Below are positions 7,353 to 50,581 of a stretch of DNA of 64,000 nt, in pieces. The stretch's first letter is position 1. Every line of letters begins with the position of its first letter. This DNA comes from Brevundimonas huaxiensis (GTDB lineage Bacteria; Pseudomonadota; Alphaproteobacteria; Caulobacterales; Caulobacteraceae), in assembly GCF_014218725.1 (NCBI RefSeq), contig NZ_JABBJE010000001.1, positions 1-64,000 of the forward strand, read 5' to 3'. The notes under the pieces were generated by a model that ran no database searches, was not told the DNA's origin, and was given only the letters and a program-made list of their open reading frames with translations. Made by a program: the position numbers and the translations under genes.

Positions 7353-8075
7353 TCACCCGATCCCATAGTGATCCGCCAGGGCCTGAAGCGCCTGTTTCAG
7401 CACCGTCTTACCCTGGCGGCGGCGTAGGCCCAAGCCCGTTTCGGCCAGTTGCAGGCTGTCGCCGTGGATGCAGATGCGGGTCAGGATGGGGCGAAGGCGC
7501 GGGCCGACGGCGGTCAGGGCCTGTTCGACGCGGCGGGCGGCGGACAGGGCGCGGTCGGTCGGCTCCATCCGGGCGGCGGTTCCCGAGCCGGCGGTCGGCA
7601 GGGCGTCCCAGCGCATGGTGACCGACGCGCCCTTCGTCGCCTGTTCCGCCTCGCGCCGCAGCCGTTCGCCGGCGGCGGCCTCGGCCGGGGTCAGCCAGGG
7701 GCGGCCGGACGCATCCTTGCGTCGCGCCAGCCAGGCGATGGGGCTTTCGCCCAGATTGGCCCGCGCCCGGACCATGCAGCCGTCCGGCTGCATCAGGTCG
7801 CGCTCGCCCGCCACGAAGCCGGGACGGCCAGGGGCGGGGGCAGGGGCGGGGGACGGCTTCGGGTCCGGCTGGGCGCGTCCCGACCAGCCGCCGCCGGGCC
7901 GCACGCGCAGGCCGGGCTGGTCGATCAGGGCGCGAAACTCGGCCTCGGTCAGGGTCAGGCTGATGCGGCTGCGGCGATCGGGCGACAGGCGCAAGGCATA
8001 GGCGCCGCCTTCGGCCGACAGCCAGGCGCCGGGCTTGGCCATCAGATCGCGCGCGCGTTCCAGAAGCCGGCTCAT
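7353..8075 (-). CDS. DUF6456 domain-containing protein
   Basis: A 240-residue protein. The C-terminal half (about 140-240, AGERLRREAEQATKG through TRICIHGDSLQLAETGLGLRRRQGK and LKQALQALADHYG) matches DUF6456, common beside DnaA-domain-like regulators in alphaproteobacteria. A Pro/Ala-rich linker (about 70-90) separates a small N-terminal domain (DPGAWLSAEGG-like region and LTEAEFRALIDQPGL). The start overlaps the stop of the upstream gene as ATGA (8072-8075), indicating translational coupling. Role unknown, with a DNA-related role suggested by context. Confidence 0.8.
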   Translation of the reverse strand: MSRLLERARDLMAKPGAWLSAEGGAYALRLSPDRRSRISLTLTEAEFRALIDQPGLRVRPGGGWSGRAQPDPKPSPAPAPAPGRPGFVAGERDLMQPDGCMVRARANLGESPIAWLARRKDASGRPWLTPAEAAAGERLRREAEQATKGASVTMRWDALPTAGSGTAARMEPTDRALSAARRVEQALTAVGPRLRPILTRICIHGDSLQLAETGLGLRRRQGKTVLKQALQALADHYGIG

Positions 8076-8428
8076 TGCGGCAGCTCCAGGCGGGGCGACT
8101 GATACAGGCCCTGGATGCACCCTTCGAGGTCGTTCATCAGGTCGTCGATGCTGCGCCGTTCGCGCTCGTCCTCGACCCAGCGGCAGGCGGCGCCGACGCT
8201 GGCGCGATTGACGCCGAAGACGTGGCCGACCCGCTCCAACGTCCAGCCATAGGCGACGTGGGACAGATACATGGCCAGCCAGCGCGGGCGGGCCGCGCGC
8301 GGGTTCATGCGGCCCCGGCCGGTCATCTGCGACGGATGGGCGCCGGTGCGCGCCGCGATCAGATGAATGGCCAGCCCGGCCTTGACCTGATCCTCCTCGG
8401 TGACCGGCACCCTGTAGTCCTCCAGCAC
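8072..8428 (-). CDS. helix-turn-helix protein, DnaA domain IV-like
   Basis: About 118 residues. The central part has a helix-turn-helix pattern similar to the DNA-binding C-terminal domain of DnaA: ARPRWLAMYLSHVAYGWT, then LERVGHVFGVNRASVGAACRWVEDERE. A GTG at 8428 is preferred as the start because GAGGGAG lies about 7 nt before it; a GTG at 8446 in the same frame is an alternative. It forms a two-gene unit with the DUF6456 gene and lies upstream of ctrA in divergent orientation. A regulatory role is likely, but targets are unknown. Confidence 0.75.
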   Translation of the reverse strand: MLEDYRVPVTEEDQVKAGLAIHLIAARTGAHPSQMTGRGRMNPRAARPRWLAMYLSHVAYGWTLERVGHVFGVNRASVGAACRWVEDERERRSIDDLMNDLEGCIQGLYQSPRLELPQ

Positions 8429-8569
8429 GAAACGTCTCCCTCTCACGAACTCTCGACGCCGGCATCATAGGCGGCCGTGACGTCGCGATAGGAATATCGT
8501 CCTACTGTGCGCCAAAATCGGTCGTGGCGGCTTAACCGCCTTGCGGTTGCGGGCAGGACATTGTGCGGG

Positions 8570-36250: not shown

Positions 36251-36418
36251 GATCCTCCCCTGCTGGCGGGGGAGGGGGACCGCGCGTCGCGCGGTGGAGG
36301 GGGCGGAAACGGGTGTGATCTAAGGGTTGTGAGGCGGATATTCCACTGGAAAGGTCGGTGGGGCGTTCGCCCCCTCCACCGCTTCGCGGTCCCCCTCCCC
36401 CGTGAACGGGGGAGGATC
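36251..36418. repeat. inverted pair of CCTCCCCC..GGGGGAGG repeats
   Basis: The left half begins GATCCTCCCCTGCTGGCGGG, the right half ends GTGAACGGGGGAGGATC. Between them are complementary arms GGTGGAGGGGGCG and CGCCCCCTCCACC, so the whole 168 bp forms an inverted repeat. It fills the space between the divergent ABC-F and TetR genes. Confidence 0.85.
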
Positions 36419-37784: not shown

Positions 37785-37835
37785 CGCCCCCTCCACCGCT
37801 ACGCGGTCCCCCTCCCCCGCAGGCGTGGGAGGATC
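37785..37835. repeat. CGCCCCCTCCACCGC..CCTCCCCC palindromic repeat upstream of ycgN-like gene
   Basis: Contains CGCCCCCTCCACCGCTACGC, GGTCCCCCTCCCCC and GTGGGAGGATC. Same family as 36251 and 46887. It ends 2 bp before the next start codon, so its GGGAGG serves as that gene's ribosome-binding site. Confidence 0.8.
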
Positions 37836-37837
37836 TG

Positions 37838-38299: not shown

Positions 38300-38415
38300 G
38301 GTAGCACCCCCTAGCCAGCGCAATGACGCTGGTTGAAAACGTGCGAAAACAGACCGTTAACGAATTATGTGGGCGTTGTTCCGGCCTGAGGACGCTGGTC
38401 CGCTATGGTTTGGGC

Positions 38416-38856
38416 ATGACGGGAAATCAGGACGACGAAGAGGGCAGCTGCGGCGGCGCGCGCGCGACGGCTGCGTCCTGCGCGGGGTGGATGGAGCCCC
38501 TGTTCCTGATGATGAAGGCCAAGATCGAGGAGACGGCCAAGAGCGTCTGCGAGACCGACGTCAAGGACGCCGCCGTCGCCGAAAAGGTCGCGCGCCAGAT
38601 CGGGGTGATTGCGCGGTCGGCCAAGGCGGTCGAGGCGATGCGGCTGCTGTGCCTGAGCGACAACGAAGAGGACGAGATGGGTGGACGAACCTACGACCCC
38701 GCCGAGGACGAGCGAATCCGACAGGAACTGGTCGTCGAACACGCGCGGCTTGATCGAATTCTGGAAGAGAAAAACGCCGAAGCTGCTGAAAGAGCGCGGG
38801 CTAAGGCTGCATCGCAATCACTGTCGGCTGGCGAAGCATCAGTTTCCGCCGACTGA
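38416..38856 (+). CDS. small terminase-like GTA protein (g1 candidate)
   Basis: A 146-residue helical protein. After a Cys/Gly-rich start, the core is LFLMMKAKIEETAKSVCETD, VARQIGVIARSAKAVEAMRL and a C-terminal charged helix ERIRQELVVEHARLDRILEE. Position directly upstream of the large terminase suggests the GTA gp1/TerS role, but the sequence is too divergent to be sure. ATG 38416 is preferred over ATG 38323, which would add 31 residues. Its 3' end overlaps the terminase gene by about 176 bp. GTTAAC upstream (38357) may be a regulatory half-site. Confidence 0.6.
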   Translation: MTGNQDDEEGSCGGARATAASCAGWMEPLFLMMKAKIEETAKSVCETDVKDAAVAEKVARQIGVIARSAKAVEAMRLLCLSDNEEDEMGGRTYDPAEDERIRQELVVEHARLDRILEEKNAEAAERARAKAASQSLSAGEASVSAD

Positions 38857-40000
38857 CGACGACCTGAAGACCTGGCTGCTGCTGGGCGGCCGGGGATCGG
38901 GCAAGACCTTCGCCGGGTCGGTCTGGATCGACATCATGGCGCGAGAGCTGCCCGGCATCACCCTGGCCCTGGTCGGCCCCGCCCTGCACGACGTGCGCGA
39001 GGTGATGGTGGAGGGGGCGTCGGGGATCAAGGCGCTGGCGGAGCCGGGCGACCGGCCGCGTTGGGAGGCCGGGCGGCGTCGGTTGGTGTGGGGCAATCAA
39101 TCGGCGGCCTATGCGTTTTCGGCCGAGGATCCCGACAGTCTGAGGGGGCCGCAGTTTCACGCCGCCTGGGCGGACGAATTCTGCGCCTGGCGGCGGCCGG
39201 AGATGGTGCTGTCGAACCTGAGGTTCGGACTGCGGCTGGGGGCCTGGCCGCTGCTGGCGGTGACGACGACGCCCCGGCCGATCCCGGCGCTGAGGCGGCT
39301 GATGGCCGAAGCGGGGACGGTGACGGAACGGGCGGCGACGGCCCTGAACGCGCACAACCTGTCGCCCGGCTTTCTGGCGCATCTGAACGACGTCTATGGC
39401 GGGACGCGACTGGCGGCGCAGGAGCTGGAAGGCGTGGTGGTCGAGGGCGAGGGCGCCCTGTTCCGCATTGCGGACCTGAAGCGGGCCAGGGGCGCGCGGC
39501 CGGCCGAACTGGACCGGATCGTCGTGGCGGTCGATCCGCCGGCGACCGCGACCGGAGACGCCTGCGGCATCGTGGTCGTGGGGCGAAAAGGTCGCCAGGC
39601 CTTCGTGCTGGCCGATCGGACGGTGCAGGGGCGCTCGCCCCGGAGCTGGGGCGGGGCGGTCAGCGCGGCGGCGCGCGAATTCGGCGCGCACGAGGTGGTC
39701 GCCGAGAGCAATCAGGGCGGCGACATGGTGCGCTCGGTCCTGGCCATCAGCGCCTGTCCGTGCCGGATCGAGATGGCCCACGCGTCGCGGTCGAAGGCTG
39801 CACGGGCCGAGCCGGTGGCCCTGCTGTATGAACAGGGGCGGGTGGTCCACTGCGACGCCTTCCCGGCGCTGGAGGAAGAGATGCTGGCGCTGGGCAGCGA
39901 GGGCGGACCCAGCCCGGACCGGGCCGACGCCCTGGTATGGGCGATCACGCGGCTGATGCTGGGGCCGCAGTCGGCGGGACCGCGGTTGCGGGGGCTTTAG
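38681..40000 (+). CDS. GTA/phage terminase large subunit
   Basis: A 439-residue packaging motor. Walker A is LLLGGRGSGKTFAGS (about 67-80), Walker B is HAAWADEFCAW (about 160), and motif III is LLAVTTTPRPIPALRRL. The C-terminal RNase H-like nuclease has VAVDPPATATGDACGIVVVG, VAESNQGGDMVRSVL and SPDRADALVWAITRLML. This is the RcGTA gp2 type, packaging host DNA into heads. GTG 38681 is the only early start (AGAGGA upstream), which makes a long overlap with the preceding gene. Frame appears intact. Confidence 0.93.
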   Translation: MDEPTTPPRTSESDRNWSSNTRGLIEFWKRKTPKLLKERGLRLHRNHCRLAKHQFPPTDDDLKTWLLLGGRGSGKTFAGSVWIDIMARELPGITLALVGPALHDVREVMVEGASGIKALAEPGDRPRWEAGRRRLVWGNQSAAYAFSAEDPDSLRGPQFHAAWADEFCAWRRPEMVLSNLRFGLRLGAWPLLAVTTTPRPIPALRRLMAEAGTVTERAATALNAHNLSPGFLAHLNDVYGGTRLAAQELEGVVVEGEGALFRIADLKRARGARPAELDRIVVAVDPPATATGDACGIVVVGRKGRQAFVLADRTVQGRSPRSWGGAVSAAAREFGAHEVVAESNQGGDMVRSVLAISACPCRIEMAHASRSKAARAEPVALLYEQGRVVHCDAFPALEEEMLALGSEGGPSPDRADALVWAITRLMLGPQSAGPRLRGL

Positions 40001-40033
40001 AGCCTCAAGATTTCAACGACAGGAGAGACGAAT

Positions 40034-40321
40034 ATGCCGGCCATTCCGGAGCGGGACGGATTGCTGAACCATGGGCGCGACGCGGGCGGCCCGCCGAGGC
40101 GCGCGGCGGCGGTCACGCCCAGCGACGCGGCCGATCTGACGACTTACGCCAAGGCGCTGTATATCGGCGGCGCGGGCAATATCCGTGTGCTGACGGTCGG
40201 GGCAGAGGACGGGGACGCCGTGACCTTCGCCAACCATCCGGTGGGGTGGTTGCCGGTGCAGGTGCGCCGGGTGCTGGCGACCGGGACGACGGCGACGCAG
40301 ATCGTGGCGGCCTTCGACTGA
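40034..40321 (+). CDS. GTA head-spike base protein (RCAP_rcc01079-like)
   Basis: A 95-residue protein. AVTPSDAADLTTYAKALYIGGAGNIRVLT and AVTFANHPVGWLPVQVRRVLATGTTA are features of the RcGTA spike base protein that anchors head fibres at the capsid. RcGTA spikes bind host capsular polysaccharide (established for Rhodobacter capsulatus). Its stop overlaps the next start as TGATG. RBS AGGAGAG upstream. Confidence 0.85.
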   Translation: MPAIPERDGLLNHGRDAGGPPRRAAAVTPSDAADLTTYAKALYIGGAGNIRVLTVGAEDGDAVTFANHPVGWLPVQVRRVLATGTTATQIVAAFD

Positions 40322-41449
40322 TGTCGGGTCTCGAGATCGGAGCGGCGACGGCGGCGCCGGGCGGGGTTCTGGGGAGGGCGCGGTTCGCCGTGCCCGACTT
40401 GCCCGTCTGGTCGGCGGCGGTCAGGACCATGCAGGCGGGCGGGCGCGAGGCGCGGCTGCTGTGCATCGGCGACAGCGTGACCCAAGGTTATGGCGCGGTC
40501 CCCGGCGGTTGGACGCCCAACGGTCGGGCGAGCGCCTGGCCCGAACGGCTGGCGGCGATGATGAGTGGTCGGGGCCTGCCGGCCTCGGCGGCCTCGGTGG
40601 CCGGGGCCGGGGCGGCGGATGGTGCCAGCGGAGGCTATCCCGCCTATGACCCGCGCGTGACGATGGGCGCCGGGTGGGGCGTAAACGCCCTGACCGGGAT
40701 TGGCGGCAAGCTGTTCTCGGGCGCGGCCGCGTCGACGGGCGTCTGGAGCTTTCAGCCGGACCGGCCGGTGGATCGGTTCGATCTGTGGGCCGTAACCAAT
40801 ACGGCGCTGGGCGTGCTGACGATCGAGACGGACGGCGCAGTGCGGGCGACGGTGAACACCACCAAGGGCGGCGTCGATGGAGGTCACGACGGTGGCCTTT
40901 CCCGAGACGACCGGGCCTGTGAGCGTGCGCTGGGCCTCGGGAGGAGCGGTGTTCATCGCGGGCGGGGTCGCGTGGCGCTCGGACGTGAAGCGGGCGCGGG
41001 TGATCAACGCCGGGTGGGGCGGGGCCAGGATCGCGGACTGGATCACGACGGATCAGCCGTACCGGGCGTATGGGTCTATCCCGGCGGCGGCGCCTGATCT
41101 GTCGGTCGTGTGTCTGACGATCAACGACTGGAACGCGGGGACGGCGGTGGCGACCTACAAGGCCGGGCTGGGGACGCTGGTGGATCAATGCCTGACGACG
41201 GGGGACGTGCTGCTGATGACCGGATGTCCGTCGGATCCGGCCCAGGGCAAGGCGAGCTATGCCGCGCAAGCCGCGTTGCGGGACGCGGTGTTCGAGGTGG
41301 CGGCGACGCGGGGGCTGGCCGCGCCCGTCGACGGGACGGCCCTGTTCGGCGGCAGCTTCGCCGGCGGGCTGATGTTCGATTCCGTCCATCCCAATGCGGC
41401 GGGCCAGGCGAGGATCGCCGAAGCGGTGCGCGCGCGGGTGATGATCTGA
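40321..41449 (+). pseudogene. SGNH/GDSL hydrolase, interrupted by a +1 frameshift
   Basis: The first part (40321 to about 40872, frame 1) has block I with the nucleophile, LLCIGDSVTQGYGAVPGG. The rest of the protein (from about 40870, frame 2) has VINAGWGGARIADWI, SVVCLTINDWNAG and block V FDSVHPNAAGQARIAEA with the Asp-His pair. Both halves are needed for one SGNH esterase of about 375 residues. The shift falls in AAGGGCGGCGTCG (40866-40878), best explained by one extra G or C. Co-translated with the spike-base gene, so probably a spike-associated polysaccharide esterase before decay. A sequencing error cannot be excluded. Confidence 0.85.
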
Positions 41450-41487
41450 GGTTGTCGTGCGCGCTCGCGCGATGATAATCGTGGCGG

Positions 41488-42558
41488 ATGGGCGAGCGGT
41501 TCTTTGGGGTGCAGGCGCTGCGGTTCGCGGCGGCGACGGCGGTGGTCGTCACGCACGCCGTGGATCTGGCCGGGACGCGGCTGGGGCTGGAGACCGCGCT
41601 GGGCGGCGGGACGCTGGAGAACTTCGGCGCCGTGGGCGTGGACGTGTTCTTTGTCATCAGCGGCTTCATCATCGCCACGACGACGCAGGGGCAGACGGGC
41701 GTGGGCGCGGCCGGGGCCTTTCTGTGGCGGCGGTTTCGGCGGGTGGCGCCGATCTACTGGCTGCTGTCGCTGCCGATCCTGGTCGGGATGGCGCGGGGCG
41801 GGACGCTGAGCCCGGAGGTGGCGGCGGCCACGTTTCTGTTCTGGCCGTTCAGCGGGCTGGAGATGACGTTTCCGGCGTTGGGGCCGGGGTGGACCCTGTG
41901 TTTCGAAATGCTGTTCTACGCCGGGTTTGGGCTGGCGATAGCGGGCGGCCGGCGGGTCGGCTGGGGGCTGGTCGCGGTCTATGCGGCGATGCTGGCGGCC
42001 GGGCTGGTCGTGGCGGCGCCGGTTCTGAGGTTCTGGGGCGCGCCGATCATTCTGGAGTTTCTGCTGGGCGTCGGGATCGCCTCGGTTTGGCGGTTCGCGC
42101 CGCCTCGGTTGGGGCTGTGGGCGGTCGGTCTGGCGATGCTCGGGTTCGGGCTGGGCCTGGTGGTCGGCTATGGCGGCATCGACGATGTGCGGGCGTTGAA
42201 CGATCCGTGGAATGGGTTGAGGCGGGCAGCGGTCTGGGGTCTGCCCAGCGCCCTGCTGGTGTTCGGCGTGGTGCGGATGGAGCGGACGGACCGGGCGCCG
42301 GGGCGGTTGGGGCGGGCGGCCGCCTTCATGGGGGATGCGTCCTATTCGATCTATCTGGTCCATGTGCTGGTGATCCGGGCTTTGGGGCGGATGTTCGAGA
42401 GCGGGATGGTCGCCCTGCCGGGGGATGCGGTGGTGGTGGTGACGGTGCTCGCCAGTCTGGGGGCGGGGGCGGTCGTGCACGTGTGGATCGAGCGGCCGCT
42501 GTTGCGGCTGATGACGCCTTCAAGACACCGCCCCTTGCTTCACACGCCGTCATCCTAG
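41488..42558 (+). CDS. acyltransferase family 3 (OafA/YrhL-like) membrane protein
   Basis: A 356-residue polytopic membrane protein with about ten spans. Family features: GVQALRFAAATAVVVTHAVD (His required for acyl transfer), VGVDVFFVISGFIIA, RRFRRVAPIYWLLSLPILV, and the late ASYSIYLVHVLVI. Such enzymes O-acetylate surface sugars. It is placed inside a GTA head cluster between the SGNH hydrolase and portal genes, which is not usual. It may modify the same surface polysaccharide that the spike recognises (inference). Confidence 0.9.
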   Translation: MGERFFGVQALRFAAATAVVVTHAVDLAGTRLGLETALGGGTLENFGAVGVDVFFVISGFIIATTTQGQTGVGAAGAFLWRRFRRVAPIYWLLSLPILVGMARGGTLSPEVAAATFLFWPFSGLEMTFPALGPGWTLCFEMLFYAGFGLAIAGGRRVGWGLVAVYAAMLAAGLVVAAPVLRFWGAPIILEFLLGVGIASVWRFAPPRLGLWAVGLAMLGFGLGLVVGYGGIDDVRALNDPWNGLRRAAVWGLPSALLVFGVVRMERTDRAPGRLGRAAAFMGDASYSIYLVHVLVIRALGRMFESGMVALPGDAVVVVTVLASLGAGAVVHVWIERPLLRLMTPSRHRPLLHTPSS

Positions 42559-42642
42559 GCCTTGCGCCTAGGATCCATAAACACCGGACTTGAGCGGCGA
42601 GCACCGTGAGTATGGGTCCTCGGGACAAGCCCGAGGATGACG
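42548..42642. repeat. CGTCATCCTAGG..CCGAGGATGACG intergenic repeat
   Basis: Left end CGTCATCCTAGGCCTTGCGC, right end GACAAGCCCGAGGATGACG; each has its own small stem (CCTAGGCC-type and TCCTCGGG/CCCGAGGA). A dispersed repeat type common in alphaproteobacteria, here between the acyltransferase and portal genes. Confidence 0.75.
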
Positions 42643-42663
42643 AACTAAAAGGAAATCGACACA

Positions 42664-43836
42664 ATGGTTTCGATCCGGTGGCCGTTCGGCCAGGCGGGGC
42701 GCGTGGGCGCGCCTGAGGGCAAGCAGAGCCGGGCGGGCGGGGTGATCGCCTTGTCGGGGGTGGGGCGGCCGCGGTGGACGCCCAACGACTACGCCAGTCT
42801 GGCGCGCGAGGGATATCAGAAGAATGCGGTGGCCTATCGCTGCATCCGCATGATCGCCGAGGCGGCGGCGGCTGCGCCGTTCGCGGTGTTCGTGGACGGG
42901 GTGCGCGACGAGGCGCATCCGCTGGCGAAACTGATCCGGCGGCCCAATCCCGAGCAGTCGGGGGCGGAGTTGATGGAGGCGGTCTATGGGGCGTTGCAGG
43001 TGTCGGGCAACGCCTATGTCGAGGCGACCGGCGATGCGGACGGGGACGGGGCGCCGGACGAGCTGTGGCCGCTGCGGTCGGACCGGGTGAAGGTGGTTCC
43101 GGGCCGGTCGGGCTGGCCCGAGGCGTGGGATTATTCCGTGGACGGACGGTCGGTGCGGATCAGGCGAGCGGCGGACGGCTGGGCGCCGGTGATGCACCTG
43201 AAGCTGTGGCACCCGCTGGACGACTGGTACGGGCTGTCGCCGCTGGAGGCGGCGGCGCAAGGGGTGGACGCGCACAATGCGGCCGGCGCCTGGAACAAGG
43301 CCCTGCTGGACAATGCCGCGCGGCCGTCGGGGGCGCTGGTCTATGGGGCGAGGAACGGCGAGCGGCTGACGGACGGCCAGTTCGAGGCGCTGAAGGATCA
43401 GCTGTCGACCGTCTATGCCGGGGCGACGAACGCCGGGCGGCCGATCCTGCTGGAGGGCGGGATGGACTGGAAGCCGCTGAGCCTGACGCCGGCCGAGATG
43501 GATTTCACCGCCGGCAAGCACGCGGCGGCGCGCGAGATCGCTCTGGCGTTCGGGGTTCCGCCGCAACTGCTGGGGATACCGGGCGACGCGACCTACGCCA
43601 ACTATCGCGAGGCCAATGCGGCCTTCTGGCGACAGACGGTGATCCCGCTGGTGAAGAAGGCGGCGGGGGCGATGACGGGCTGGCTGGGCGAGCGGTTCGC
43701 GGGGTGCGAAATCCGCGCGGACCTGGATGCGGTCTCGGCGCTGCAGCCCGAGCGGGACGCCCTGTGGGCGCGGCTGGAGGCGGCGAGCTTCCTGACCGAC
43801 GAAGAGCGTCGGCGAATGGCGGGGTTGGGAGCGTGA
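42664..43836 (+). CDS. GTA/HK97-type portal protein
   Basis: A 390-residue protein. Portal features: YQKNAVAYRCIRMIAEAAAA, HPLAKLIRRPNPEQSGAELM, GALQVSGNAYVEA, LWPLRSDRVKVVPG, HLKLWHPLDDWYGLSPLEAA and IALAFGVPPQLLGIPGDATYANYREAN. It forms the dodecameric vertex channel through which TerL packages DNA. Length is normal and the frame is intact. The stop codon TGA (43834) lies in the first bases of a palindromic repeat. Confidence 0.95.
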   Translation: MVSIRWPFGQAGRVGAPEGKQSRAGGVIALSGVGRPRWTPNDYASLAREGYQKNAVAYRCIRMIAEAAAAAPFAVFVDGVRDEAHPLAKLIRRPNPEQSGAELMEAVYGALQVSGNAYVEATGDADGDGAPDELWPLRSDRVKVVPGRSGWPEAWDYSVDGRSVRIRRAADGWAPVMHLKLWHPLDDWYGLSPLEAAAQGVDAHNAAGAWNKALLDNAARPSGALVYGARNGERLTDGQFEALKDQLSTVYAGATNAGRPILLEGGMDWKPLSLTPAEMDFTAGKHAAAREIALAFGVPPQLLGIPGDATYANYREANAAFWRQTVIPLVKKAAGAMTGWLGERFAGCEIRADLDAVSALQPERDALWARLEAASFLTDEERRRMAGLGA

Positions 43837-43899
43837 GTGGTGATTGGTGATTGGTGACTGGGGTGGCGCCAATCACCAACCACGCGTCACGAGTCACGC
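43833..43899. repeat. GTGAGTGGTGATTGG-type palindromic repeat, copy 3
   Basis: GTGAGTGGTGATTGGTGATT on the left and AATCACCAACCACGCGTCAC plus GAGTCACG on the right form a hairpin. The element starts at the portal stop codon (its GTGA includes the TGA) and ends 17 bp before the next start. Confidence 0.8.
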
Positions 43900-43915
43900 G
43901 GCAAAGGAGAGCGAA

Positions 43916-44149
43916 ATGACCGAACATCAAATCCGGCGCGTGCCGACGGCGCTGCTGATCGCCGTCGTGGTGCAGACGGTGGGCGGCTTGGTCTGGGCCG
44001 GGGGCGCCGCGGCGCGGATCGCGACGCTGGAGCAGCGGGTCGGGGAGCAGAGGCTGGTCGCCGAACGGCTGGCGCGGCTGGAGGTCCAGGGCGAGGCCAC
44101 GGCGGCGGCCGTGGAGCGGATCGAGCGTAGGTTGGAGGGTGGGACGTGA
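43916..44149 (+). CDS. small GTA-cluster membrane/coiled-coil protein (g3.5 position)
   Basis: A 77-residue protein with one hydrophobic segment (PTALLIAVVVQTVGGLVWAG, about 9-28) and a coiled coil (LEQRVGEQRLVAERLARLEV; VERIERRLE). A small gene at this place between portal and protease is usual in GTA clusters. ATG 43916 has AAGGAGAG upstream. Its stop overlaps the next start (GTGA, 44146-44149). Function unknown. Confidence 0.7.
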   Translation: MTEHQIRRVPTALLIAVVVQTVGGLVWAGGAAARIATLEQRVGEQRLVAERLARLEVQGEATAAAVERIERRLEGGT

Positions 44150-44211
44150 GTGGTGAATCGCGATTGGTGACTCGACAGAAGCATTCACGTGTCACGATCC
44201 ACCACTCACCC
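44146..44211. repeat. GTGAGTGGTGAATCG-type palindromic repeat, copy 4
   Basis: GTGAGTGGTGAATCGCGATT on the left pairs with CGTGTCACGATCCACCACTC plus ACC on the right. Like copy 3, it begins at a stop codon (TGA at 44147). It also supplies the start and first codons of the prohead protease. Confidence 0.8.
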
Positions 44212-44616
44212 CTTGAGATCGAAGGCTACGCCTCGCTGTGGGGCGTGGCGGATCTGAACGGGGACGTGGTGCAGGCGGGGGCGTTTGCGGACAGTCTGGC
44301 CAGGACGGGGGTTGAGGGGGTGCGGATGCTGAACCAGCACGATGCGCGGGCGCCGGTCGGGATCTGGGAGCAAATCGTCGAGGATGCGCGCGGCCTCTTC
44401 GTGCGCGGCCGGATCGAGGACTGGTCGGCCGAGGCGCGGTTCGCCGGGGCGCTGAGCCGGGCCGGGGCGCTGGACGGGCTGTCGATCGGCTACCGCACGG
44501 CGCGGGCCCGGCGTCAGGGACGGCTGCGCGTACTGAGCGCGGTCGAGCTGTGGGAGGTGTCGCTGGTGACGTTTCCGATGCTGCCGGGCGCGCGGTTCAG
44601 GGTCGTGACCGAATGA
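44146..44616 (+). CDS. HK97-family GTA prohead protease
   Basis: A 156-residue protease. EGYASLWGVADLNGDVVQAG, LNQHDARAPVGIWE (catalytic His), LSRAGALDGLSIGYR (Ser) and ELWEVSLVTFPMLPGAR are HK97 prohead protease motifs. It processes the capsid N-terminus during head maturation. The GTG start overlaps the stop of the previous gene. The first 20 residues (SGESRLVTRQKHSRVTIHHS) are encoded by a palindromic repeat. The gene's last 37 bp recur at 45633. Confidence 0.88.
   Translation: MSGESRLVTRQKHSRVTIHHSPLEIEGYASLWGVADLNGDVVQAGAFADSLARTGVEGVRMLNQHDARAPVGIWEQIVEDARGLFVRGRIEDWSAEARFAGALSRAGALDGLSIGYRTARARRQGRLRVLSAVELWEVSLVTFPMLPGARFRVVTE
44564..44600 (+). repeat. direct repeat A, 3' end of the prohead protease gene
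   Basis: TGGTGACGTTTCCGATGCTG followed by CCGGGCGCGCGGTTCAG. It recurs at 45633-45668 with one base deleted and one changed. The two copies flank the extra gene at 44674. Confidence 0.9.
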
Positions 44617-44673
44617 CGGCTTTCGACCCTGACCGACGTTGTCATCCAAACGAACGGTGTTCATGATCTTGGA

Positions 44674-45549
44674 ATGAACTGGTTCGCGATTATCGCTGGG
44701 CTAACAGCCTCGCTGACAGCCAACTCCGCACCCGGACTGTCACCCCAACCCCATCCTGCAGTGGGTGAGGAGCACGAGGTCATCATCTCCTATGTGACTT
44801 CCAAGCAGAGTAGCGATGGCTCCTCCAGTAGCTCAAGCGGACAAGACGTTCTGCTGGAGCGGGTGATCGCCGTCAGTAACGCCGGGCTTGAGTTGGAATT
44901 CGATCTACCGAGTGACGCAACCGCTGAGGATAGGGCCCGGGACTGGAAATTTCCGGCGCGGATTCTCCAGCAATCAAACGGCGCCATCCGGCTGCTGAAT
45001 GGCGATAAGCTGGATGAACGCGTCGACCGCTGGCTTAAGGCGTCGGAGATGTCGCGGGACATGTGCGGACGCTGGATTTTTACCTGGAATGCGTTTCGCA
45101 TCGAGTGCGATCCGGAGTCTGTGATCGCCGATATTGCAGCCATCAACCTGCTCAACGTCAATCTGCGGGAGGGTGCAACCTATCGGCATCCCCAAACTGT
45201 CGGTTCCGGGATTTTGTCTCTTACATCCAAGGGGCCGGGCGGCGCGGTCTACTCTGTGAGGTTGGCGGTCGATGCCGACGCTGTCCGCAGGGAGCGCGCC
45301 GAAAGTGACGTGGTCGTCGGCGAAATTACGCAGAATCCGGTGACGTTCGAGGCCGCCTTTAGCGAACGTTCGAAAGAGACTGTCTCTGGAACTGTTGAGG
45401 TCACGTTTGATGTTGATGCTTCGGGGAACCCGATGCGGCGAACGGTCGTAACAACGCTGGATACGGTAAAGCCTGATGGGGTGTCGGAGAAAGATCGGCG
45501 AACCGACACAGTGGAGCGGGTCGCTTCCGGAGGGACAAACCGGTCTTGA
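44674..45549 (+). CDS. exported protein of unknown function inserted in the GTA cluster
   Basis: A 291-residue protein with a signal-like N-terminus (IIAGLTASLTANSAPG, 1-22). A Ser-rich linker (48-58) precedes a beta-rich domain (60-270, VLLERVIAVSNAGLELEFDL; EAAFSERSKETVSGTVEVTF). A Cys pair, MCGRWIF and FRIECDP, is visible. Codon use is clearly less GC-rich than in the flanking GTA genes. It is not a known GTA gene and lies between the two copies of a 37-bp direct repeat, so it was probably brought in by insertion. Function unknown. Confidence 0.7.
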   Translation: MNWFAIIAGLTASLTANSAPGLSPQPHPAVGEEHEVIISYVTSKQSSDGSSSSSSGQDVLLERVIAVSNAGLELEFDLPSDATAEDRARDWKFPARILQQSNGAIRLLNGDKLDERVDRWLKASEMSRDMCGRWIFTWNAFRIECDPESVIADIAAINLLNVNLREGATYRHPQTVGSGILSLTSKGPGGAVYSVRLAVDADAVRRERAESDVVVGEITQNPVTFEAAFSERSKETVSGTVEVTFDVDASGNPMRRTVVTTLDTVKPDGVSEKDRRTDTVERVASGGTNRS

Positions 45550-45632
45550 AGCAGGTTGGCGGCTGTCCGCTTTCCACCCATAACTGACGTTAGCGGCGTC
45601 CGTTGTGGGCGCTCCATCATAGCCGAGAATGG

Positions 45633-45668
45633 TGGTGACGTTCCGATGCTGCCGGGGGCGCGGTTCAG
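45633..45668 (+). repeat. direct repeat B, decayed copy of the protease 3' end
   Basis: TGGTGACGTTCCGATGCTGC followed by CGGGGGCGCGGTTCAG. Compared with 44564-44600 there is one missing T and one C-to-G change, so it no longer encodes the protease end. The stop codon of the minus-strand gene at 45665 lies inside it. Confidence 0.9.
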
Positions 45669-46459
45669 TTTGGCTTGAGGGCCTGAAAAGCGCCGTTGCG
45701 GTCGAGGGTTTCGGCGAGGGCGGCCATCTGGGCGCGGCCCTTCTTGCCGTGGAGATAGCGCAAGGCCCAGCCGGCGAGCACCAGGCCGAAGATCCAGCCG
45801 ACGTGCAGCACCAGGTGGGCGAACAGGATGAAGACGGCCGCCAGCGCATAGGCGCCAAGATAGACCAGGGCCAGCTGGCCGCCGCGCGACGCTGTGGGGT
45901 TGGACAGGCCGGCGATGATCTCGGCCAAGCCCGGTGCCGCTGCGGCGGACGGCAGGGTGTGATCGGAGGTTTTGGGAGCAGGTTTGGGGGCGGGTTTGGG
46001 TTGAGCTTTCGGTGCGGCCTGGGCGGCGGGTTTTGCCTTGGGCGGGATCGGATCGGACGCGCGCCGGGCGGGGCGGAACAGGATCGATCGGCCGGCTTCG
46101 TCGACGGTGAAAATCTCTTCGAAGGCGGTGGTCGAGAAGTCGATGGCGCGGGTGTCCTGGCCGTAGCTCTGGCCATGCAGGGCCGTCAGCCGGCCCTGGC
46201 GCAGCTCGATCTGGAAGCCGACGGGGTCGGGCAGGCCGGCGACCATCGCATGGACCGTGCCGAACAGGCCGGTGGCGTCCGGGTTGGCGGTCGCGCGGTC
46301 CGCATCGACGACGATCTGGGAATAGAGGCCGGCGCCGGTGTTGCGACGCAGCCCCGGCGAACTGGCGGCGACCTGGGCGCGCAGGTCCGGCACGCTGTCG
46401 CCCATCTGCCAGATCATCGCGTCCATGACGGCGCTTTCGAGGGGCGTCAGGTGGGACAT
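45665..46459 (-). CDS. membrane-anchored protein of unknown function
   Basis: A 264-residue protein. An N-terminal soluble domain (1-130, SPLESAVMDAM-like start, GLRRNTGAGLYSQIVVD, GTVHAMVAGLPDPVGFQIEL, YGQDTRAIDFSTTAFEEIFT) is followed by a Pro/Ala/Lys linker (135-175) and two C-terminal membrane spans (about 200-240). Its direction is opposite to the GTA genes around it. I recall similar uncharacterised proteins in Caulobacterales chromosomes. It may be a chromosomal passenger left by rearrangement of the cluster. Confidence 0.7.
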   Translation of the reverse strand: MSHLTPLESAVMDAMIWQMGDSVPDLRAQVAASSPGLRRNTGAGLYSQIVVDADRATANPDATGLFGTVHAMVAGLPDPVGFQIELRQGRLTALHGQSYGQDTRAIDFSTTAFEEIFTVDEAGRSILFRPARRASDPIPPKAKPAAQAAPKAQPKPAPKPAPKTSDHTLPSAAAAPGLAEIIAGLSNPTASRGGQLALVYLGAYALAAVFILFAHLVLHVGWIFGLVLAGWALRYLHGKKGRAQMAALAETLDRNGAFQALKPN

Positions 46460-46465
46460 GGAGCG

Positions 46466-46792
46466 CTAGGACGACTTGGATGCAGCATTGCGACGCAGCA
46501 CCAAAACCACGATGCCGAGGATCAGGACGAGTATGGCGATCTGCGCCGCGCGGTAGGGCAGGCCGCTTTCGCCCTCAGCCTCGGCGCCGCGATGCAGGGC
46601 GGTCAGGACGATATCGGCAACCGTGTAGACGATGACCGGAAAGCCACTGGCCGCCGCCCATGGCCAGCGGGCCAGGCGTCGCGGCCCTGCTGAAAGCGTG
46701 CCGGGCGGAAAGAGGATCGCGAAAAGGATCAGCGCGGCTGCATGAAGCAGCGGGCTGTAGAGATCGGCTTCGACGAAGATCGGCGCGGGCAT
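46466..46792 (-). CDS. small three-span membrane protein
   Basis: A 108-residue protein with hydrophobic segments near 12-30 (LLHAAALILFAILF), 45-65 (WAAASGFPVIVYTVADIVLTAL) and 82-102 (IAILVLILGIVVLVL). It is 6 bp upstream of the gene at 45665-46459 and in the same operon. No family recognised. Confidence 0.6.
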   Translation of the reverse strand: MPAPIFVEADLYSPLLHAAALILFAILFPPGTLSAGPRRLARWPWAAASGFPVIVYTVADIVLTALHRGAEAEGESGLPYRAAQIAILVLILGIVVLVLRRNAASKSS

Positions 46793-46886
46793 GAAACGAG
46801 CCTAGCGGTCGCCTGAAGCCGCCGCAATCACAGGTTTCGGGCGGTCGATGACGGCCGCTCGCGAAATGGGAAGGTCGCGACGCGGC

Positions 46887-46940
46887 CGCCCCCTCCACCG
46901 CCTTCGGCGGTCCCCCTCCCCCGCATCGCGGGGGAGGATC
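46887..46940. repeat. CGCCCCCTCCACCGC..GGGGGAGGATC palindromic repeat
   Basis: CGCCCCCTCCACCGCCTTCG, GCGGTCCCCCTCCCCC and GCGGGGGAGGATC form nested hairpins. Same family as 36251 and 37785. It lies just before the capsid gene, at the right-hand end of the non-GTA insert. Confidence 0.85.
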
Positions 46941-46958
46941 GTTTCAGCAGGAGATATC

Positions 46959-47738
46959 ATGAAAGAGACCAAACAGGCTTCGGGCCAGCCCGAGGCGCGC
47001 GATGTCGTGCGCGAGATGATGGCGGCGTTCGAGGCGTTCAAAGGGGCGAACGACGCCCGGTTGGGCGAGATCGAGAAGAAGGCGGCGGCCGATGTGCTGC
47101 TGGAGGAGAAGGTGGCGCGCATCGACCAGGCGGTCGCCTCGGCCCAGGCGCGGCTGGATCGGATGATGAGTCAGAGCCGTCGACCGGCGCTCGGCGGCGA
47201 ACCGGCCGAACCGGCGTCTGCGCCCGAGGCGAAGGCGGCGTGGGATGGATACTTGAAGACAGGTCAGTCTGGCGCGCTGGAGGTCAAGGCGGGTCTGTCG
47301 GGCGGCGCGACCTCGGGCGGCTATGTCGTGCCCTATGAGACCGAGCGGGCCATCGAGCGGCGTCTGATGGCGGCCAGTCCGATGCGCGAGATCGCGACGG
47401 TCAGGACCGTGGCGGCCGGCGTGTTCAGAAAGCCGGTGTCGACGGCGGGCGTGGCCTGCGGCTGGGTGGCGGAGACGGCCGCGCGGCCCGAGACGGACCC
47501 GGCGACCCTGGCCCTTCTGGAGTTTCCGTCGGCAGATCTCTACGCCAATCCGGCGGCGACACAGGCGTTGCTGGACGACGCCATGGTCGATCTGGACGAA
47601 TGGCTGGCGGCCGAGGTCGAGGACGCCTTTGCGGCGCAGGAGACCCAGGCCTTCGTCAACGGCGACGGGGTGAACAAGCCCAAGGGGCTGCTGTCCTATC
47701 CGACTGTGGCGGACGCGGGCCAGGCCTGGGGCCAATAG
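46959..47738 (+). pseudogene. GTA major capsid protein (HK97 type), frameshifted
   Basis: The first 259 residues of an HK97-type capsid protein. The N-terminal scaffold helix (ARDVVREMMAAFEAFKGAND, 12-60) would be removed by the prohead protease. The mature part begins near GLSGGATSGGYVVPYETE, with typical ASPMREIATVRTV, AAVADE-like CGWVAETAARPETDPA and EVEDAFAAQETQAFVNGDGV. It stops early at GQAWGQ. The continuation GYVPSGAAGGFAATSPADRL, expected in the same protein, is present in the +2 frame just downstream. One missing A in TGGGGCCAATAGG (47727-47739) explains it. ATG 46959 has CAGGAGA upstream. Confidence 0.88.
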
Positions 47739-49564
47739 GCTATGTCCCCTCGGGCGCGGCGGGCGGCTTTGCAGCGACCAGTCCGGCGGATCGCCTGATC
47801 GACCTGATCTATGCGCCCAAGGCCCAGTACCGACCGAACGGCCGGTTCGTGATGAACCGAAAGACGGTCTCGGCCGTGCGCAAGTTCAAGGACGCGGACG
47901 GCAACTATATCTGGCAGCCGGCGACGCGGCTGAACGGACGGCTGGCGGGCGACGGGCGCGATCTGATCGAGGCGGTGCTGGCGCGAGGCGGCTTGTCGCC
48001 CGACGAGATGGCCATCGAGGGCGTCGAGGGGGCGGCGGCCGGCTATGTGATCGACCGACCGATGCGGACGCGGGATGCGCTGGAACCCCTGCTGGCGGCG
48101 TTCGACGCCGTGGCCGCCGAGCGCGACGGGAAGGTCGCAGTCTTGGGGCGGGTGGAGACGGTGGTCGAGATCACGGGCGAGGCGCTGGCTCTGCCCGATG
48201 GCGGGGCGGCGGAAACGACGACGCGGACGCGGGAGCCCCGGGCGAGCGAGGCGCGGGTGCGGTTCATCGACGAGACGGCGGACTATCAGACTGGGGCGGT
48301 GGTCGTGAGGTCGGACGATGCGTCGGCGACGGCGGGCGGGGTCGATCTGGACTTGCCGCTGCTGTGCGGCGGCGGGCTGGCGACGGCGGCGGCGCAGCGG
48401 GCGCTGGACGGCGAGGGCATGGAGGCGAGAACGCTGGCGCTGGGGCCGCTGGAGGCCTTGCGGTTGGAGCCGGGCGACGGGGTGCGGCTGGAGGGTCGGT
48501 CGGGCGACTGGCGCGTGATGCGGGTCACGTCGGATGAGACGCCGTCGGCGGTGCTGGAGCCGGTGACGGCCCGGCGGATGGTCGAGGATGACGGCGTCTG
48601 GCGCGGGGGTGAGACGCCGGTCGTGGTCGGGGCGCCGTTTCTGAAGGTATTGGAGCTGCCGCCCTTGATCGGGAGTGATACGGACGCGCGGCCCCTGATC
48701 GCTGTGGCGACCGAGCCGTGGCGGACGATGCGGCTGCATGCGGGGCCGACCGCTGAGACCCTGACGGCGAGGGGCGATGTGGAGACGCCGGCGACGGTCG
48801 GGGTGCTGCTTGAGGCGCTGGGGCCGGGCGTGCGGCACCGCTGGGACGAGGCCAACGCCATAGTGGTGCGGGTCGAGGGCGAGGCGCCGGAAAGCGCGGT
48901 CGAGGCGGCGGTGCTGGGCGGCGGCAATGCGCTGGCGGTCGAGACGGCTGTGGGCTGGGAGATCTTGCAGTATCGGTCGGCTGTGCTGGTCGGACCGGGG
49001 ACGTGGCGGCTGACGGGTCTATTGCGCGGGCAGCAGGGGACCGAGGTGGAGATGCGGGCGGGCGCCGGGGCGGGGGCGGTCGTGGTCTTTCTGGACGACC
49101 GGCTGGCGCGCGCGGAGATCGGGCGGGGCGAGCGAGGACTGCCGCTGGTCTGTCGCGCGGGGCCGGCTGGCGCGGCGCCGGGCGGTTCGGGTTTCAGCGA
49201 GACCCTGTTCGTGGCGAAGGGCGTGCATGATCGGCCGTGGTCGCCGTGCGGCCTGATGGTCGAGACGTCGGCCGAGGGGCTGGCGATCCGATGGACGCCG
49301 CGCGTGCGGCTGTTCGGCGACAGCTGGGATGGGGAATCGACCACGGTCGATCCGGTGCGGTTCCGGCTGCGCGTGTTTGATAATGACGTCGTGGTTCGGA
49401 CGATGGAGGTCGAGGGGCTGTCGGCATCCTATTCTGCGATCGACTTGGCGGCGGACTTCCCAGAAGGCGCGACATCGACGGCGCGGATCGCCGTGGCGCA
49501 GTGGGGCGAGGGGTTCGGGTGGGGCTCAGAAGCAGAGGTGGAGGCGGAAATCCGGCGGGTCTGA
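47739..49564 (+). pseudogene. fusion of capsid C-terminal fragment to GTA tail protein gp15 C-terminal part
   Basis: One open frame with two unrelated origins. Up to about 47925 it is capsid (DLIYAPKAQYRPNGRFVMNR, KFKDADGNYIWQPA). From about 47930 it is the C-terminal part of the GTA host-specificity/baseplate protein gp15: GRDLIEAVLARGGLSPDEMA, GYVIDRPMRTRDALEPLLAA, TWRLTGLLRGQQGTEVEM and RFRLRVFDNDVVVRTMEVEG. The last third of the capsid, all of g6-g14 and the N-terminal part of gp15 are missing. There is no start codon of its own, so it is a deletion remnant. An assembly collapse would have to be excluded. Confidence 0.82.
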
Positions 49565-49654
49565 CGAAATAGGGCGGGTCCAGCCCTTTGCGCGGGGCGG
49601 GGCATGGCTTAACTGACGGCCTCTCGACGTTTTTCAGCTGGAGTGACAACGGAC

Positions 49655-50581
49655 GTGGCAGGCGACCCCTACAAGGAACTGGGCGTTTCGAAGGGCGCGA
49701 GCGCGGACGAGGTCAAGAAGGCGTATCGCAAGCTCGCCAAGGAGTTGCATCCCGACAAGAACCCCGGCGACAAGATCACCGAGGACAAGTTCAAACGGGT
49801 GACGGCGGCCTTCGACATCCTGGGCGACAAGGAAAAGCGCGCCAAATACGACGCCGGCCAGATCGACGGCGACGGCAACGAACAGTATCGCGGCTTCGGC
49901 GGGGGCGGTCGCGCCGGCGGCAGCCCGTTCGGCCAGGGCGGCAATCCGTTCGGACAAGGCGGCGGGCCGGGCGGCCGGGCCAACTTCGAAGGCGTTGATC
50001 TGGACGAGCTGTTCGGCATGTTCGGCGGGGCCGGGCGTCAGCGCGGCGCGAGGGACTTCACCTCACGCGGTCAGGACGTGAAGGCGACGCTGGACATCAG
50101 TCTGGAAGACGCCATCGCCGGGGCGACGCGGCGGATTCAGTTCTCGGACGGGCGCACTCTGGACGTGACCATTCCAAAGGGGGCGTCGGAAGGCCAGACG
50201 ATCCGCCTGCGCGGCCAGGGATCGCCGGGGCGCGGGGCCGAGAACGGCGACGCCCTGATCGAACTGAGGATCGAACCGCACCCGATCTACAAGCGTGACG
50301 GGGCGGACCTGACGATGGATCTGCCGGTGTCGGTGCCCGACGCGGTGCTGGGCGCCAAGGTGAGGGTGCCGACGCCGGAGGGCGTGGTGCAGATGACGCT
50401 GCCGGCCGGCTCGAACTCGGGCAAGGTGCTGAGGCTGAAGGGGCGCGGCGCGTTCGCGCAAGGCAGGCGCGGCGATCTGCTGGCGCGGGTGATGGTGACG
50501 CTGCCGGATGCGCCGGACGCCGAACTGACCGCCTTCGCAGAGGATTGGCGGGCCAAGCGGCCTTATACGCCGGGGCGGTGA
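49655..50581 (+). CDS. DnaJ-class co-chaperone, CbpA-like
   Basis: A 308-residue protein. J-domain (1-68) with DPYKELGVSKGASADEVKKA and the essential HPD in LAKELHPDKN; Gly/Phe-rich linker (80-125, FGQGGNPFGQGG); two substrate-binding domains (130-300, VKATLDISLEDAIAGATRRI; TIPKGASEGQTIRLRGQG). There is no Cys-rich zinc domain, so class B rather than DnaJ itself. It stimulates DnaK. GTG 49655 (MAGDPYKEL) is preferred; GTG 49643, four codons upstream, is an alternative. Confidence 0.92.
   Translation: MAGDPYKELGVSKGASADEVKKAYRKLAKELHPDKNPGDKITEDKFKRVTAAFDILGDKEKRAKYDAGQIDGDGNEQYRGFGGGGRAGGSPFGQGGNPFGQGGGPGGRANFEGVDLDELFGMFGGAGRQRGARDFTSRGQDVKATLDISLEDAIAGATRRIQFSDGRTLDVTIPKGASEGQTIRLRGQGSPGRGAENGDALIELRIEPHPIYKRDGADLTMDLPVSVPDAVLGAKVRVPTPEGVVQMTLPAGSNSGKVLRLKGRGAFAQGRRGDLLARVMVTLPDAPDAELTAFAEDWRAKRPYTPGR

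Follow-up and report, generated by a model that had tools for sequence, protein, structure and literature searches.

The stretch of DNA analysed here (the window) comprises 64,000 nucleotides of Brevundimonas huaxiensis (assembly GCF_014218725.1, contig NZ_JABBJE010000001.1, positions 1 to 64,000) and lies at the beginning of contig C1 in a 3.16-Mb genome of 35 contigs, rated 100% complete. It carries, at 38.3-49.56 kb on the + strand (from the start of a g1-like open reading frame, ORF, to the end of gp15), a gene transfer agent (GTA) cluster of the type of RcGTA, the GTA of Rhodobacter capsulatus. Profile matches identified, in this order, the large terminase TerL (Terminase_6N/6C), a portal protein (PF04860), an S78 protease (PF04586) and an HK97-type capsid protein, in its N-terminal part (PF05065); the genes present follow the conserved order from terminase to gp15, and nine genes (g6-g14) are missing. 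These matches agree with a preliminary description, made from the sequence alone, which had read the locus as a decayed GTA with terminase, spike base, portal, protease and capsid in GTA order; its label of spike base corresponds to a match to NF048002, and the terminase, portal and protease frames are open, as it had stated. The cluster was compared with three intact loci: L001, from Brevundimonas sp. ASV9 (genome G113); and L002 (G155) and L003 (G156), both from B. vesicularis. The features of the cluster are:

38323..38856, + strand: g1-like ORF of 177 amino acids, in the place of the small terminase; position and sequence kept in near relatives
38681..40000, + strand: g2, large terminase, open (PF03237, PF17289; conserved part from about 38850)
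40034..40321, + strand: spike base protein, open (NF048002, RCAP_Rcc01079 family, match at 40034-40318)
40321..41449, + strand: SGNH/GDSL hydrolase, broken (pieces 40321-40866 and 40877-41446, PF13472 on both)
41488..42558, + strand: acyltransferase 3 family protein, open (PF01757)
42664..43836, + strand: g3, portal, open (PF04860)
43844..44149, + strand: g3.5-like small ORF, kept in relatives
44146..44616, + strand: g4, S78 prohead protease, open, last few residues altered (PF04586; alignments of relatives stop at about 44600)
44601..45632, + strand: insertion with a 291-amino-acid ORF (44674-45549), missing in L001
45665..46459, - strand: gene of 264 amino acids, family not matched, between g4 and g5; also in relatives
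46848..47738, + strand: g5, major capsid, first piece, ending at a frameshift (PF05065)
47739..47932, + strand: g5, second piece, in a different frame, truncated by the deletion near profile position 326 of 408
47928..47932, + strand: deletion junction, GGCTG common to both parent sites
47933..49564, + strand: gp15 (baseplate 'megatron'), C-terminal 543 residues, open (NF048004, PF13550, PF23666)

The window cluster is closely related to those of L001, L002 and L003 (portal identity 98, 98 and 97%, respectively) and shares their accessory genes between terminase and portal; unlike the window, all the core genes g2-g15 of these loci are open, and gp15 is full length (1232, 1232 and 1245 residues, without internal stop). 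Compared to them, the window has lost the final fifth of the capsid gene (beyond profile position ~326 of 408), g6-g14 and gp15 up to position ~690 of 1222, and no g6-g14 match was found between its capsid and gp15. The earlier proposals that the capsid runs directly into the C-terminal part of gp15, and that the cluster cannot make a particle by itself, were thus borne out. The fusion is visible in one ORF (47600-49564), in which residues 43-112 match capsid PHROGs and residues 63-650 a tail/gp15 PHROG; NF048004 aligned to the gp15 remnant over profile positions 753-1297 of 1299, under the full-length cut-off. The two junction sites are 7.2-9.1 kb apart in the 12 loci holding both sides in order (about 7.8, 8.3 and 8.0 kb, from coordinates, in L001, L002 and L003), and five bases (47928-47932) are common to both when read from the flanks of the intact relatives. 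A 15-base microhomology suggested by overlapping blastn pieces was rejected, as the flank reading leaves 5.

Neither g6-g14 nor a second cluster was found elsewhere in the genome by searches with the portal, L003 DNA, PF09343, PF09356, g9 and g11. The 6,971-base L003 query (capsid end to gp15 start) gave 74 matches, all of them to the capsid edge (47825-47942) or to short dispersed repeats. PF09343 (g12) and PF09356 (g13) had no match in the genome; in the set of 14 control genomes, that of Caulobacter vibrioides matched both. Searches with the L002 proteins g9 and g11, which had no positive control of their own, gave no match either, and g6, g7, g8, g10 and g14 were sought through the DNA query alone. 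The sole other portal-like match was a protein of 28% identity on contig C8 (L037, G000:C8:78323-79210), which probably belongs to another prophage. A junction-spanning DNA query matched 52 of 61 genomes including the strain's own, which alone matched both halves unbroken among the matches listed.

These results bear on whether the deletion is an assembly artefact in a strain that has a complete cluster, which we consider extremely improbable. In its favour, the assembly is a 35-contig draft without reads, and the same fusion was spanned by none of the best 120 of 714 protein matches. However, g6-g14 were not found on any contig of a genome rated complete, a junction overlap of only 5 bases would be too short for an ordinary assembly collapse, and frameshifts lie outside the junction. 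Moreover, internal deletions with other junctions are present in the single-contig genomes G157, G075, G134, G107, G160 and G088, and the protein P0096 is a further capsid-gp15 fusion with another junction.

The lesions missed by the preliminary description were two one-base frameshifts, in the capsid gene (near 47.73 kb) and in the SGNH-hydrolase gene (near 40.87 kb; L001-L003, among others, have it in a single frame), and an insertion of ~1 kb where the protease gene ends. At each frameshift, seven of eight relatives agree with each other and differ from the window; the eighth is unaligned at that site. The insertion (44.60-45.63 kb) supplies new last residues to the protease, and 37 bases of the L001 protease end matched both of its flanks, indicating that an imperfect repeat borders the insert. 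Its 291-amino-acid ORF had no Pfam or NCBIfam match and belongs to a widespread family (782 proteins at E <= 0.001).

The age of the decay was approached through the ratio of nonsynonymous to synonymous substitution rates (dN/dS; pairwise codon comparison of the window with L001-L003, by an own script with counts of the Nei-Gojobori type). Overall, the ratio was 0.140 (0.116-0.167) between window and relatives, and 0.134 (0.109-0.160) among the relatives; for the retained head genes, terminase, portal and protease, the values were 0.097 (95% interval 0.066-0.135) and 0.077 (0.052-0.112), respectively. The genes that are certainly broken (capsid, gp15 remnant, SGNH hydrolase) gave 0.167 (0.132-0.205) and 0.170 (0.133-0.210), that is, they are as constrained as in the intact relatives, so that a low dN/dS is no argument that the open genes still work, nor are open frames a sign of continuing selection. 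The excess dN of the window compared to two outgroups was 0.0025 (-0.0012 to 0.0063), equal to ~3% of the window branch spent without constraint, with an upper bound of 8% (10% if either half of the data is taken alone), indicating that the decay is recent and occupies at most about 8-10% of the branch. The preliminary description had left open whether the decay was recent or the remaining genes still selected; recency is favoured, as purifying selection has left the same signature in the broken pieces as in the open genes, and the second alternative is the less favoured.

Taken together, we propose, with a probability of roughly 0.9, that the locus is a vertically inherited GTA cluster of a Brevundimonas near B. 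vesicularis, inactivated very recently. The capsid end, g6-g14 and the first half of gp15 were removed by a deletion of ~8 kb between sites sharing 5 bases, which presumably formed by short-microhomology joining; the capsid and SGNH-hydrolase genes each also suffered a one-base frameshift, separate from the deletion. RcGTA-type particles need capsid, connector, tail tube, tape measure, tail tip and baseplate, and the complete head-tail gene set of a functional GTA is lacking in the window. No particle would be formed without capsid, connector, tail and baseplate, and the cluster would be inert as a transfer device. The open genes would be passengers, spared so far for want of time and expected to decay; any remaining expression of terminase, portal and protease would be of no use or mildly costly. 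Several points weigh against this proposal: the point estimate of dN/dS for terminase, portal and protease is slightly higher in the window (0.097 compared to 0.077), with overlapping intervals; a low dN/dS fits continuing selection on the open genes equally well; the absence by homology of g6, g7, g8, g10 and g14 elsewhere in the genome was judged solely from the L003 DNA query; and the junction is known from assembled sequence alone, without reads.

Comparable damage to the cluster affects other species of Brevundimonas. The gp15 search matched 126 of 131 Brevundimonas genomes, and its stretch was fetched for 124 (7 not), 28 of which could not be judged (21 at a contig or region end, 4 with runs of N, 3 split over contigs). 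The 96 assessable genomes, counted over g3-g15 because some stretches end before the terminase, included 61 intact clusters and 35 damaged ones: 16 without at least two internal genes, the window among them; 14 with smaller lesions; and 5 without the left-hand genes despite at least 4 kb of upstream sequence. Single-base lesions in genomes other than the window (G068, for instance) may be sequencing errors. G027 (g14 lost, g13 and gp15 cut), classed among the smaller lesions, was added to the 16 to give 17 deletion events. Damage is frequent in the clade of the window: the neighbouring genomes G106, G157, G075, G158 and G077 are damaged, and G155, G113 and G156 are intact. In the damaged genome G028 (L058/L089), a truncated terminase is fused to the SGNH gene, g13 is interrupted, and gp15 is split: its larger part lies on the same contig at a distance of ~1.5 Mb. 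Of the two stretches, the first holds 100 N.

The chromosomal neighbourhood of the locus is conserved. Next to gp15 lies:

49643..50581, + strand: DnaJ-like neighbour gene, adjoining gp15

A DnaJ-like gene adjoined gp15 in all 19 damaged genomes inspected (the window and 18 others, with a gap of 66-112 bp in the 18), as expected of one inherited locus. This neighbour, together with gp15 matches in 126 of 131 genomes, points to vertical inheritance at a fixed chromosomal place, and the near-universal presence in the genus weighs to some extent against an ordinary prophage remnant.

Other damaged clusters (for example G157, G075, G025, G107 and G031) resemble the window in an internal deletion sparing the left-hand genes and the gp15 end, and their left and right end points vary between genomes. 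Deletion ends, compared as profile coordinates and not through alignment of every junction, differed between genomes, indicating separate events or separately extended ones. The beginning of gp15 was missing in 17 genomes, and seven of the remnants (L102-L107 and L076) start at profile positions 1047-1068, within ~20 residues of each other and with different left ends. The junction DNA inspected there was rich in words like GGCGCGG; a microhomology deletion hot spot is possible, and variable sequence before ~1068 also blurs the start. A rule of in-frame junctions was rejected: the early junctions were mostly in frame, and G075, G157, G107, G072 and G020 join different frames. The 3' end of gp15 was retained in the damaged genomes found; these were located through their gp15 match, so that loss of this end would escape detection. 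Identity at fourfold sites was 0.744 in gp15 columns 1250-1300, compared to 0.58-0.72 in the five preceding 50-column blocks and 0.715-0.830 in the first 650 columns, and no sigma-70-like promoter was found at 49.0-49.8 kb; no conclusion was drawn on selection on the gp15 end.

The genes retained in deletion genomes showed no relaxed selection. One-sided rank tests for a higher dN/dS in deletion genomes than in intact ones gave p = 0.68 for terminase, 0.74 for portal, 0.38 for protease and 0.90 for capsid (56, 70, 70 and 66 genomes, including 10, 9, 9 and 5 deletion genomes, respectively); against this flat trend, the deletion genomes G160 and G025 lay at the 55th-85th percentile of the intact genomes. 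This unraised dN/dS, like the open frames and low dN/dS of the window, is also what would be seen if terminase, portal and protease were selected for a partial or new role, for example with the proteins of another prophage, and the distant portal-like protein on contig C8 and the persistence of a GafZ-like gene in damaged genomes would suit such a role. We regard it as very unlikely, since the certainly broken capsid and SGNH pieces are equally constrained, the retained genes are frameshifted in other deletion genomes (protease in G075, portal in G160, terminase in G088) and the set of genes kept varies between genomes.

The recently inactivated cluster is accompanied in the window by a putative switch of the Gaf type, encoded by two overlapping genes at 7.36-8.45 kb:

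7356..8102, - strand: GafZ-like DUF6456 protein, open (PF20057)
8072..8446, - strand: GafY-like small protein with a DnaA-type helix-turn-helix, open (PF08299, 28.9 bits, under the 31.5 cut-off)

DUF6456 is a domain that we take to be that of GafZ/GafA, and the small helix-turn-helix protein is named GafY-like from its position and size. The window thus holds a candidate dedicated activator of the GafA/GafYZ kind, the pair being putatively assigned to gafYZ; its action would extend no further than the terminase, portal, protease and accessory genes. GafZ-like matches were present in 36 of 37 genus genomes, some of them cut at a contig end or with stops (for example G027, G035 and G030), and were near full length and without stops in the damaged genomes G011, G020, G025, G028 and G031, indicating that the presumed on-switch persists where particle genes are gone.

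Of the other features, the g1-like ORF had no Pfam or NCBIfam match, and its position suggests a small terminase. The SGNH hydrolase and acyltransferase genes (40321-42558) were found between terminase and portal only in the nearer relatives among the loci compared, and may serve the modification of a surface polysaccharide receptor. The antisense gene of 264 amino acids (45665-46459) occurs in part of the Brevundimonas loci and had no Pfam or NCBIfam match. REP-like short palindromic repeats at 36266-36418, 37785-37836 and 46882-46943 have many copies in the genome and also occur in the GTA clusters of relatives, between genes.

As far as the accessible parts of PMC9632790 and PMC11150451 describe RcGTA and CcGTA, the GTA of Caulobacter crescentus, the window resembles them in the order terminase, portal, protease, capsid ... 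gp15, in the matches to the Rcc01079-family spike base and 'GTA megatron' models and in a gafYZ-like pair apart from the cluster, and differs from them in lacking the capsid end, g6-g14 and half of gp15 and in two frameshifted genes. The C. crescentus cluster had looked incomplete in earlier bioinformatics and yet makes particles (PMC9632790, in the part available), which calls for caution on absence by homology; in the window, both flanks are physically joined. The GTA gene set is kept to varying degrees in about half of the Rhizobiales, Sphingomonadales and Caulobacterales examined, according to the accessible part of PMC9836097. No description of GTA decay within Brevundimonas was found by title or abstract start in the literature searched, most subscription papers being outside reach.

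The window locus is an ordinary decayed GTA, one more of a known kind; of more interest than this single locus is that such losses recur across the genus and look young. A FastTree phylogeny was built from the GTA proteins of these 96 genomes; 0.706 of its length lies in terminal branches, and the probability that all 17 deletion events fall on them at a uniform rate is 0.0027. This result is only a hint: the tree is made from the GTA proteins themselves, gappy in damaged genomes, an earlier deletion may be masked by a later one, and the GTA may have been lost entirely, long ago, in the 5 of 131 genomes that gave no gp15 match. As end points differ, selection is not relaxed and the all-terminal probability is about 0.003, we tentatively raise the idea, which we still hold to be rather doubtful, that the GTA is often lost by short-microhomology deletions and that these losses do not persist, GTA-less lineages tending to be short-lived. 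If true, this would be a comparative sign of a lineage-level advantage that keeps GTA production although the producing cell dies. The 61 intact and 35 damaged clusters within one genus form a natural experiment on the retention of genes that kill their producer, and allow recombination, DNA repair and survival to be compared between close relatives that have an intact cluster and those that lack one.

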